Positions 51,475 to 61,472 of a stretch of DNA of 64,000 bases are shown here, piece after piece. Each line of letters starts with the position of its first letter. The stretch's first letter is position 1. The notes beneath the pieces were generated by a model. The model made no database searches. It saw only the letters and a program-made list of their open reading frames with translations, and had not been told where the DNA came from. The stretch comes from Nitrospira lenta (GTDB taxonomy: Bacteria > Nitrospirota > Nitrospiria > Nitrospirales > Nitrospiraceae). The translations under genes and the position numbers were made by a program. The stretch is taken from NCBI GenBank assembly GCA_945905765.1, contig CAMDPZ010000001.1, positions 60,298 to 124,297 of the forward strand, read 5' to 3'.

Positions 51475-51963
51475 ATGCGAGGACTTGGCCCCATCGATTC
51501 GATTTCCAGCATCCTTGAGGGGCTGGCTCGCCGCCTGGGTCTCGAATCCAAGCTGCTGGAAAGCCGCTTGCGCCGGGACTGGGTCTCCATCGTCGGAGAA
51601 CCGATCGCGTCCAATACCTGGCCGGACCAGATTCGCTACAAGAAGCTCTATCTCCTGGTCCATAACAGTGTCTGGCTGCACCAGCTCACCTTCCTGAAGC
51701 CGACGCTCATTCAAAAACTCAACCAGGTCGCCGGCTCGGAAGTCGTCACCGATATCGTATTGAAGATAGGGGAACTGCCGGAAGCCGACCGGGCACCCTC
51801 GTCACCGGAGGCCCTGCCCGAGGCCACCCCGCCTGCGAGCGCCGAGTTGCTCGCGGAAATCTCGGAGCATGTGACCACGATCCAGGATCCGGATCTCCGC
51901 CATCACCTGGCGCAGCTCATGGCGCAATCGTTGGCTCAACCGCGCGGACCGAAGGCAGGCTGA
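51475..51963 (+). CDS. DUF721/DciA-like protein
   Basis: W(V)SIVGEPIASNTWPDQIRYKKLYLLVHNSVWLHQLTFLKPTLIQKLNQVAGSEVVTDIVLKIGELP. Confidence 0.75.
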   Translation: MRGLGPIDSISSILEGLARRLGLESKLLESRLRRDWVSIVGEPIASNTWPDQIRYKKLYLLVHNSVWLHQLTFLKPTLIQKLNQVAGSEVVTDIVLKIGELPEADRAPSSPEALPEATPPASAELLAEISEHVTTIQDPDLRHHLAQLMAQSLAQPRGPKAG

Positions 51964-55218: not shown

Positions 55219-57702
<2,484 letters not shown>

Positions 57703-57759
57703 TCAATACAGCCTTAAAGTTTCAGCCTTCAGCGGCTGACCGCTCGTCGCTGAACTCAG

Positions 57760-58887
57760 CTAGATTTTAATTGGCATCACGACACATTTGAACCCGGGGC
57801 TGTCCGACTCCTGGATCAAACAGGGGCTCAGCGGATTGTCCATCTGCAGAGTGATCGTCTCTCCATCCATCACGCCCAGGACGTCCAGCAGGTAGCGGGC
57901 GTTGAACCCCGTGTTCAAGGCCTCACCTTCGTACTTCGCCGCCAGCTCTTCGGTCGCTTCCCCGAAATCCGGATTGCTGGAGAACAGGGTCATCTGTCCT
58001 GTGACGAACGACACCTTCACCGCGTTCGCCTTATCGCGGGACAGCACGGAAACACGCCGGAGCGCGCTTTCCAACTCGTGGCGGTTGACCCCGATCTTTC
58101 TACCGGTTTCTTTCGGCACCACTTGCTGATAGTTCGGGTAATTTCCTTCCATCAAGCGCGAGGTCAGCAACAGCCCGCTCTTCCGGAAGATCATGAGATT
58201 TTTGGTGAACCCGATCAAGGGCTCGCCCTCGCCGCCCTCTTCCAACAGGCGCTGCATCTCATGCGCCGCCTTCTTCGGAATGATGGCCTTGATCTCTTGC
58301 GGCGCCCCTTTGACGCCGGCATTGCCGACTTCCTGCTCGGCCACCGCCAACCGATGGCCATCGGTGCCGACCAGCCGCAAGATCGTTTTCTTCTCCGACG
58401 TGATCAAGGTCACCAGCAGCCCATTGAAAATATAGCGCGCGTCATTGTCCCCGGCCGCAAAGAGGGTCTTGCGAATCAGCTCTAAAAATCCGGCCCCGGC
58501 GAGGGGAATGAGCCCCTCCCGTTCAATCGTCGGCAAGGCGGGATAGTCGGTGCTGGGGAGGCCCACGATCTTGAATTGGCTTTTGCCGGCTTGAATCGTC
58601 GTCCAGTTATTTTCGCCGGACGTGATCTCGATCTCATTGACCGTCAGCTCCTTGATAATCTCGTAGAGCTTTCTGGCTGAGACCGTCACCCCTCCTGGCT
58701 TCTCCACAGTCGCCTTGTAGAGGCCGCGCATGCCGATTTCGAGGTCGGTGGCAACAATTTCCACCCCCTCCTGTTTCGCCTCGAGCAAGATGTTCGAGAG
58801 GATCGGCATCGTGTTGCGCTTCTCCACGACACCTTGAACCCGCTGGAGGCCCGTCAAGAGCTCGACTCGTCCCATACGCAGTTTCAT
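57760..58887 (-). CDS. dnaN: DNA polymerase III beta subunit (sliding clamp)
   Basis: RNTMPILSNILLEAK; RYLLDVLGVMDGETITLQMDNPLSPCLI...CVVMPIKI. Confidence 0.96.
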   Translation of the reverse strand: MKLRMGRVELLTGLQRVQGVVEKRNTMPILSNILLEAKQEGVEIVATDLEIGMRGLYKATVEKPGGVTVSARKLYEIIKELTVNEIEITSGENNWTTIQAGKSQFKIVGLPSTDYPALPTIEREGLIPLAGAGFLELIRKTLFAAGDNDARYIFNGLLVTLITSEKKTILRLVGTDGHRLAVAEQEVGNAGVKGAPQEIKAIIPKKAAHEMQRLLEEGGEGEPLIGFTKNLMIFRKSGLLLTSRLMEGNYPNYQQVVPKETGRKIGVNRHELESALRRVSVLSRDKANAVKVSFVTGQMTLFSSNPDFGEATEELAAKYEGEALNTGFNARYLLDVLGVMDGETITLQMDNPLSPCLIQESDSPGFKCVVMPIKI

Positions 58888-58912: not shown

Positions 58913-60280
58913 TCACGCTCGCAGGATCTGCTCCTTTAAGCTGTCCAACGTGGCACTTAATGCACTGTCGCTATCTTTGGCTTTGATGACCTGTTTGCAG
59001 GCATGGATGATGGTCGTATGGTCTTTGCCCCCGAACTGCCGTCCGATCTCGGGATAGGAGGAGTCCGTGAGTTCCCGGCAGAGATACATGGCGATCTGTC
59101 TCGGATGCACCAACGTTTTACTCCGGCGACGGGATTTCAGGTCGGAAATTTTCACATGGAAGCGCGCGCCCACCGTTTCCTGAATATCGTCCATGGACAC
59201 GATCTTCTTTTTGCTGCCGATCAGATCCCGGAGCACATTCTTCGCCATCTCCAGCGTGATCGTTTGGCCGGTGAGGGAGGCATAGGCGCCAAGACGCACC
59301 AGCGAACCTTCAAGCTCGCGGATATTGCTCTTCATCGTGGTGGCGAGAAACTGGACCACGTCTTCCGGCAACGTAACGCCCTCATCCTCGGACTTTTTCC
59401 GCAAGATGGCAATGCGCGTTTCCACGTCCGGCGGTTGAAGATCCGCAATCAGGCCCCATTCAAACCGCGACCGCAGACGCTCCTCAATGTCGGGCATGTC
59501 CTTGGGAAAGCGATCGCTCGAAAGGACCAGCTGCTTATGCGCTTCATAGAGGGCGTTGAATGTGTGAAAGAATTCTTCCTGCGTCCGTTCCTTGCCCGCC
59601 AAAAATTGAATATCGTCGATCATCAACATATCGATATGACGGTACCGCTTCCGCAGATCCATCATCTTGTCGTAGCGAATGGAGTTGATGACCTCGTTCG
59701 TAAACTGCTCGGTCGTCAAATAGGCAATGCGGAGATCGGTCCGTTCCGCCACATAGTTGCCAATGGCGTTCAAGAGGTGGGTCTTCCCTAATCCTGTTTC
59801 TCCATAGATAAAGAGCGGGTTATAGGCTTTCGCCGGCTGTTCCGCGACCGCCATACAAGCCGCATGGGCAAACTGGTTCCCCGCGCCCACCACAAAATTC
59901 TTAAAGGTGTACTTGGGATTGAGCTGGATGCCCCGTTTCGGCCGAGCCCCGGTGGCCTGGCGGCTCGTGACAACAGAACTCCCACCAGTCTCAGATTGGC
60001 TGGCCGGTTGCTTATGAGAGATGGCAAAAGTAATCGACGTTTCCTCACCACCCCTGGCCGCGGAGATGGCTTCCATCAAAAGAGGTCCATAATGCTGACT
60101 GAGCCAATCCCCGAAGAACTTATTCGGGACTCCCAGTTGAGCCGTGGAATCCTCAATTCTTTCAAGGTGAATTGGCGTAAACCACGTATCATAGACCTGT
60201 TTTGGCACTTTCCCTTGGATATGAGCCAAGGCGTCCTGCCAGATAGTTGCGCTAGTCATTAGTTCTGTATCATTCTTCAT
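58913..60280 (-). CDS. dnaA: chromosomal replication initiator DnaA
   Basis: NPKYTFKNFVVGAGNQFAHAACMAVAEQPAKAYNPLFIYGETGLGKTHLLNAIGN; RRSKTLVHPRQIAMYLCRELTDSSYPEIGRQFGGKDHTTIIHA. Confidence 0.98.
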   Translation of the reverse strand: MKNDTELMTSATIWQDALAHIQGKVPKQVYDTWFTPIHLERIEDSTAQLGVPNKFFGDWLSQHYGPLLMEAISAARGGEETSITFAISHKQPASQSETGGSSVVTSRQATGARPKRGIQLNPKYTFKNFVVGAGNQFAHAACMAVAEQPAKAYNPLFIYGETGLGKTHLLNAIGNYVAERTDLRIAYLTTEQFTNEVINSIRYDKMMDLRKRYRHIDMLMIDDIQFLAGKERTQEEFFHTFNALYEAHKQLVLSSDRFPKDMPDIEERLRSRFEWGLIADLQPPDVETRIAILRKKSEDEGVTLPEDVVQFLATTMKSNIRELEGSLVRLGAYASLTGQTITLEMAKNVLRDLIGSKKKIVSMDDIQETVGARFHVKISDLKSRRRSKTLVHPRQIAMYLCRELTDSSYPEIGRQFGGKDHTTIIHACKQVIKAKDSDSALSATLDSLKEQILRA

Positions 60281-60288
60281 ACACAGGC

Positions 60289-60580
60289 TTATTCACACCT
60301 GTGGATAACCTGGTTCTTCAGATTGTCTTTAGGTCTTCGATCTCAACCTTTTCATCTCAAAGGAGAATTCATCCACGATCTACTGCTCCCATTAACACAG
60401 GTTACTGACTCTGCATGCAGGGGTTACCCAGAGTCAATCCCCAACTATCTCCACATAGACAGCGTGTGAGCCTGCCCATAAATTCAATACGTTAATTCCC
60501 ATCCACAATATCCACAGCACCTACTCTTACTCCTACTACGACGACTAATTCTTTCTTATACATAATAAATTAGAAGAAGA
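60289..60580. other. probable oriC: DnaA boxes, DnaA-trio-like element and AT-rich unwinding region
   Basis: TTATTCACA 60289-60297; TGTGGATAA 60300-60308; CCATCCACA 60499-60507; ATATCCACA 60508-60516; GCAC spacer; CTACTCTTACTCCTACTA 60521-60538; AT-rich CTAATTCTTTCTTATACATAATAAATTAG. Confidence 0.85.
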
Positions 60581-60593
60581 GCCACTAACAGAC

Positions 60594-60803
60594 CTATAGA
60601 ACAATGACCTGTTCCGATGAGAAGATTTTCTCAATCAAATCGTCATATGAAGAAGGAATCATCGACATAATCGGCTCAATAGAAACAACTTCCATATTTA
60701 GATCGATCGCAGAAAAAAGCGAGTGCGAGATCCGGTCCGGCTGTTGTCGAAGAAGATAAAGCGTCATACCCATCACATCCTTAAAACACGAGACTTCTAT
60801 CAA
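60594..60803 (-). CDS. DsrH/TusB-like small protein
   Basis: 69-aa ORF; position and fold-like pattern after DsrF- and DsrE-like genes; weak sequence signal. Confidence 0.45.
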   Translation of the reverse strand: MIEVSCFKDVMGMTLYLLRQQPDRISHSLFSAIDLNMEVVSIEPIMSMIPSSYDDLIEKIFSSEQVIVL

Positions 60804-61122
60804 CAGTGCGAATTAACTGCCTAATTTCATCAGCGGTGCGGATCGTCACAGAAAAACTATCAGACCAATCATTCATGACCGTTCCCGGTTCAACAATAAA
60901 GGGAACAGAGAGATGCTTGAATGAGGGAAGATATTTCTCAAGGATATCAACATCTATAATCTCTTCAGTCTCTGTCATTAACAAACGGGAAGCAGGACCT
61001 AAAAGAACGACAGTCGTTTCATGATCTCCAGCGCAAAGCCCCAATGCAATACGAAGGGCTTCAACCGGACGAGCGGTGACAAAAGGATCTTCTGAAATCA
61101 CCACCGCAATCCGTTTCGACAT
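60781..61122 (-). CDS. DsrF/TusC-like (DsrE/F superfamily) protein
   Basis: RIAVVISEDPFVTARPVEALRIALGLCAGDHETTVVLLGPASRLLM. Confidence 0.55.
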   Translation of the reverse strand: MSKRIAVVISEDPFVTARPVEALRIALGLCAGDHETTVVLLGPASRLLMTETEEIIDVDILEKYLPSFKHLSVPFIVEPGTVMNDWSDSFSVTIRTADEIRQLIRTVDRSLVF

Positions 61123-61151
61123 AGAACCCTAAAAACAGTGAGAACAACGTC

Positions 61152-61472
61152 TTATGTAAACGCGAGAAAGCGATCACACCCATCAATAATTCCAGACAAC
61201 ACGACCAACCCGGATAATGAAATCCTCGAATCGACCGTGGCAGTTGGCACACCATGTTGCTGGCAACCATAAGCACAGACAGACAGCTTCACTCCCGCAT
61301 CGATCAAGCCAAGATAGCGTGGGTCCGTGGCCATCTTGACCCCCTCATCAATGAGATAGAGATAGACCTCAACGCCACGGCGCAGAGCAGCATGAGCCAG
61401 TTGAACAACAGTCTCAACGCTGGGATGAGAAGGGGCTGTGGATAACAAGAGTCCGAGCTTGCGAGCTGCCAT
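61152..61472 (-). CDS. DsrE/TusD-like protein
   Basis: KLGLLLSTAPSHPSVETVVQLAHAALRRGVEVYLYLIDEGVKM...GVKLSVCAYGCQQHGV conserved Cys. Confidence 0.65.
   Translation of the reverse strand: MAARKLGLLLSTAPSHPSVETVVQLAHAALRRGVEVYLYLIDEGVKMATDPRYLGLIDAGVKLSVCAYGCQQHGVPTATVDSRISLSGLVVLSGIIDGCDRFLAFT

Follow-up and report, generated by a model that had tools for sequence, protein, structure and literature searches.

A predicted origin-unwinding element of Nitrospiraceae with DnaA-trios centred on adenine or cytosine

The window analysed here is a stretch of 64,000 nucleotides from a Nitrospira lenta contig, and the features discussed lie in and beside its dnaA gene (Table 1). The dnaA product aligned with B. 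subtilis DnaA (8btg) at 489.6 bits, and its translation may start at the second Met, at 60259. The gene is followed by dnaN and then gyrB; no recF was present in the ORF list between dnaN and gyrB (57690-57760), and gyrB directly follows dnaN. The intergenic DNA upstream of dnaA is bordered, within 60594-61472, by a short minus-strand ORF (60594-60803) and two DsrE/DsrF-like ORFs, of which that at 60781-61122 scored just below the Pfam cut-off and that at 61152-61472 above it. A perfect TTATCCACA box was also found on the minus strand inside a DsrE-like ORF (61437-61445), about 0.9 kb from the trinucleotide array described below. A match to the DciA family (helicase operator; 72.5 bits) is located at 51499-51759 on the same contig, about 9 kb from the origin.

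Table 1. Features of the dnaA-proximal intergenic region (positions in the window)
Feature	Position	Strand	Basis or remark
dnaA, 455 aa	58913-60280	-	Pfam Bac_DnaA 1.6e-71, Bac_DnaA_C, DnaA_N
DnaA box TTATTCACA beside dnaA start	60289-60297	+	exact match; present in relatives
DnaA box TTATCCACA	60300-60308	-	exact match; inverted relative to box 60289-60297
DnaA box CCATCCACA	60499-60507	+	upstream partner of tandem pair; 2 mismatches to TTATCCACA; read directly
DnaA box ATATCCACA	60508-60516	+	array-proximal partner of tandem pair; 1 mismatch to TTATCCACA; read directly
Spacer GCAC, 4 bp	60517-60520	.	read directly
Triplets CTA CTC TTA CTC CTA CTA CGA CGA CTA	60521-60547		plus-strand reading
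Six adenine-centred DnaA-trios 3'-GAT GAG AAT GAG GAT GAT-5'	60521-60538	-	sequence; conserved in relatives
Two cytosine-centred trios 3'-GCT GCT-5'	60539-60544	-	sequence; CGA CGA on plus strand
Ninth trio 3'-GAT-5'	60545-60547	-	sequence; conservation weaker
Stretch ATTCTTTCTTATACATAATAAATTAG directly after last CTA	60548-60573		AT-rich
AT-rich DNA-unwinding element (predicted)	60545-60573	.	duplex instability
Conserved purine block AGAAGAAG	60574-60581	.	far edge of AT-rich stretch; column conservation

DnaA boxes were clustered in the intergenic DNA beside dnaA, as is used to recognise oriC, with starts at 60289, 60300, 60499 and 60508. The two at the dnaA start, which an earlier note on this DNA had pointed out, both proved exact; they face each other and are perfect or nearly so (60289-60308). 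The tandem pair (60499-60516) sits 4 bp from an array of triplets, within the 16 bp allowed by the BUS criterion, and six consecutive 3'-NAN-5' trios follow on the minus strand, at least three being called for. Direct reading of the sequence bore out the boxes, spacer and triplets given in the earlier note, whose only slip was a surplus A following the last CTA. The same note had recognised the six canonical trios correctly and had overlooked that the array continues in register as cytosine-centred trios, written CGA on the plus strand. By nearest-neighbour energies, no other 28-bp segment in the 64 kb window is as unstable as 60545-60572, immediately beyond these trios. A short coding leader was rejected for the array region on account of TAG stops on the minus strand within the array and no in-frame ATG, GTG or TTG just before it on the plus strand. 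A search for Rfam RNA elements gave no match, and scans for sigma-70 promoters and terminators stayed at chance level.

The pattern was rare. A box followed by a spacer of 2-6 nt and six YTN triplets occurred once in the 2.33 Mb assembly, and the reversed control pattern did not occur; a box with up to two mismatches followed by at least six trios had a single occurrence in the window, and 40 simulated windows (first-order Markov sequences of 64 kb each) contained none. The single match in the assembly, the empty reversed control and the empty simulations therefore argue that the pattern did not arise by chance.

Since only 3.4 kb of contig remain to the right of the element, the contig stopping where the window does, GC skew was taken from relatives. 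In a near-identical genome (G158, DnaA 99%), the cumulative GC-skew minimum fell about 9 kb from the element within the 400 kb examined, and in a closed relative (G048) the skew samples at 2.44 and 2.54 Mb were of opposite sign, an interval that contains dnaA (2.505 Mb). Both relatives thus place the origin at this locus, as the earlier note had expected of a skew analysis. Its second expectation, conservation of the box-array-AT arrangement in relatives, was also borne out: with a profile built from close relatives, the arrangement was recovered in 123 of 130 dnaA loci of the family and in 77 of 80 further loci. Of the seven misses among the 130, most offered scarcely any sequence upstream of dnaA, or none, and two resulted from a misplaced stretch. 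The element lay 240-299 bp upstream of dnaA and antiparallel to it in all 59 loci measured, which agrees with the orientation noted earlier, the array reading away from dnaA. Where a Nitrospiraceae dnaA locus includes enough upstream DNA, it essentially always carries the same element, in the same place and orientation. The core of the first tandem box was conserved (T 93% at 60502, C 91% at 60504, C 95% at 60506), as was the TNCAC core of the array-proximal box. The spacer measured 3-4 nt in most relatives, length changes within the array were multiples of three, and one lineage (locus L283) carried about eleven trios.

Several described systems share features with the element. The BUS of B. 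subtilis oriC (incC), with DnaA-boxes 6/7 and six DnaA-trios, likewise has tandem co-oriented boxes and a short spacer, with the trios on the strand complementary to that carrying the boxes and CTA-type triplets and AT-rich DNA beyond. The BUS elements predicted by Pelliciari et al. 2021 (PMC8287927) also have a box within 16 bp of the trio array. DnaA-trios in Helicobacter pylori oriC2 (PMC8235120) and the eTrio of Thermotoga maritima (PMC10316083) are, as here, box-flanked single-strand trinucleotide sites for DnaA in an unwinding element. Several features set the Nitrospira element apart. It is found upstream of dnaA and points away from the gene, whereas the B. subtilis BUS lies between dnaA and dnaN; both of its proximal boxes are off consensus, unlike those of B. 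subtilis; and its array has 8-9 trios with cytosine-centred ones mixed in, instead of six. The trios quoted for H. pylori and T. maritima are all adenine-centred.

The middle base of the trios was then counted in 104 distinct arrays of the family. At trios 1-8 it was A in 585, C in 223, G in 22 and T in 2 cases; the A/C hypothesis arose from these same arrays, which represent one family including related genomes, so that clustering and a tree were used as well and the effective sample is smaller than the raw counts. Trios 1-4 were nearly all A-centred, and at trios 5-8 the middle base was C in 202, A in 196, G in 16 and T in 2 cases, with A 60% and C 39% at trio 7 and C 66% and A 31% at trio 8. 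G-centred trios made up about 3% and were mostly found at trio 5. Restricting the set to 44 arrays less than 80% identical to each other gave A 245, C 91, G 14 and T 2, and 26 held-out arrays, fetched after the hypothesis was formed and from the same family as the main set, gave A 150, C 55, G 3 and T 0. The first trio base was nearly always a purine (G in at least 95% at trios 5-8), and the third was looser. G came first in 220 of 223 C-centred and 501 of 585 A-centred trios, an excess that was weak within trios 5-8 (p = 0.03 for all arrays, p = 0.18 for representatives). In the sister family (f2), the middles other than A in five arrays were C or G at roughly 7 to 2 by hand count. An array finder detected clear arrays, mostly A-centred, in only a few of the other Nitrospirota families and nothing convincing in most of them.

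Changes at these positions were followed by parsimony on an 88-leaf dnaA tree. Of 67 changes at the middle base, 58 exchanged A and C, 7 A and G, and 2 C and G; at the first position of the same trios, 37.5 of 44 changes were between A and G. Flanking intergenic DNA (146 columns) showed A-C exchanges in 230 of 2100 changes (11%) and A-G exchanges in 655 of 2100 (31%). Slippage of whole trios could make one event look like several A-C changes. Arrays one letter apart gave the same excess, with 10 middle changes between A and C and 2 between A and G, so slippage is not the whole explanation. The tree changes, the one-letter comparisons and the held-out counts together suggest that selection favours A or C at the middle position.

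The protein that would read this array is conserved in nearly all its trio-contact residues. In B. subtilis numbering, E183, N187, I190, I193, R202, K222, E228 and R264 were invariant in 88 Nitrospiraceae DnaAs, and E223 was kept in 87 of the 88, the remaining one having an unread residue; in their trio-contact residues these proteins thus resemble B. subtilis DnaA. An exception was Asn196, which contacts the third trio base in B. subtilis and is replaced by Asp throughout the 88 proteins. The B. subtilis structure shows bases one and two of each trio held between neighbouring DnaA protomers, with Asn187 touching the amino group of the middle adenine (PMC10721633). Cytosine likewise has an amino group, and its contact with Asn187 explains why in B. 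subtilis it stood in for the central adenine better than G or T did, in vitro as well as in vivo; the rate in vitro was similar to that with adenine, and growth in vivo was faster than with G or T. The authors of that 2023 study proposed that the sequences read by other DnaAs might be more varied (PMC10721633).

With position, conservation, duplex instability, A/C restriction and invariant trio-contact residues all observed, the element is probably the unwinding core of the chromosome origin, built on an array of 8-9 trios with A or C in the middle. The oriC reading of the earlier note is accordingly upheld by the anatomy, uniqueness and family conservation of the element and by the GC skew of two relatives, while actual unwinding is inferred. 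How it would work, from the binding of boxes and loading of an oligomer to the capture of bases and opening of the strands, is modelled on B. subtilis biochemistry. Domain IV of DnaA would bind both head-to-tail boxes (60499-60516), and an ATP-DnaA oligomer would then extend over the array on its minus strand, with dnaA behind it, until it enters the AT-rich DNA at 60545-60573. At every interface between protomers the two leading bases of a trio would be captured, first a purine (mostly G) and second an amino-bearing base, which in Nitrospiraceae would be adenine or cytosine. Since the second base may be A or C, the array would count 8-9 trios rather than the usual 4-6 of the NAN rule, and the simplest reading by this analogy is that Nitrospiraceae origins use the full-length array under an amino-base rule. 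More generally, we lean towards a natural trio rule of 3'-RMN-5' (purine, then A or C, then a loose third base), in which C-centred trios are functional and exchangeable with A-centred ones and some origins described as having short or no trio arrays have full ones. Within such a rule the C-centred trios may be supporting rather than essential, because trios 1-3, the only essential ones in B. subtilis (PMC10721633), are mostly A-centred in the family arrays.

A different division of labour within the array was weighed against this rule. Only the proximal A-centred trios might load DnaA, the C-centred ones acting as a GC-richer brake or boundary on the extent or timing of opening, with their middle base unread. 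The concentration of C-centred trios at positions 5-8 (202 of 223) fits such a boundary, as do the need of B. subtilis for trios 1-3 only (PMC10721633) and the tendency of arrays in GC-richer surroundings to hold more C-centred trios (Spearman 0.41, relatedness uncorrected). A GC boundary should nevertheless admit G as well, yet G and T together filled only 18 of 416 middles at trios 5-8; the first-base purine and the period-3 register also run on unbroken, and the middle base has switched repeatedly between A and C. We therefore regard a boundary or brake as unlikely. The correlation with local GC would also suit an absence of selection, the middle C being produced by mutation toward GC in a GC-rich genome. 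This is extremely improbable and largely refuted, as A-G changes raise GC to the same extent and are more frequent in the flanks than any other kind (31%), yet account for 7 of 67 changes at the middle base.

Conservation alone does not identify the binder, and the block could be a promoter element or a double-stranded site for another protein (e.g. IHF, HU or an origin factor peculiar to the lineage), its likeness to trios being incidental; another conserved block, GGAGAAGAG, does lie on the far side. The period-3 constraint, however, spans eight consecutive triplets in register from the boxes, the AT-rich stretch adjoins them, and the placement beside dnaA is fixed and antiparallel. Together with the chance-level promoter and terminator scans and the empty Rfam search, these features make a site of this kind very unlikely. 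As for the purine block itself (60574-60581), no known motif was recognised in it, and it is GGAGAAGAG-like in most relatives.

How DnaA opens origins of very different sequence is a long-standing question, and under the preferred reading of an A-or-C middle a whole bacterial family appears to use a freedom within the trio, A and C being interchangeable and G and T rare. The A/C pattern of its middle bases matches a rule so far shown only by mutating the B. subtilis origin. The limited literature searched, on DnaA-trios with cytosine or in Nitrospirae, yielded no report of such A/C use in nature, nor any unwinding, footprint or mutant data on a Nitrospira origin. A 2026 review still writes the DnaA-trio as NAN, and the pattern of Pelliciari et al. 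2021, (.A.){3,}, needs A at every trio middle (PMC8287927). That logic would find the proximal part of the Nitrospira array; NAN-only searches would truncate or miss such arrays. Under a NAN-only rule, about half of the 104 arrays stopped at 4 trios, and at least three trios from the first one were retained in 83, leaving 21 with fewer than three. If the wider rule is true, the trio definition in origin-prediction tools would have to be widened, and origins counted as trio-less could be re-examined.

Two further observations concern the DNA around the tandem boxes. The sequence around CAGAGTCAATCCCCAACT (60427-60446) lies between both box clusters, and at least one relative (L048) has a similar GAGTCAATCCCCAACT upstream of its dnaA gene. 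A strongly conserved T (60493, 95%) falls within 60490-60498, one 9-bp step upstream of the tandem boxes, and may mark another weak DnaA site, the third in phase with them.
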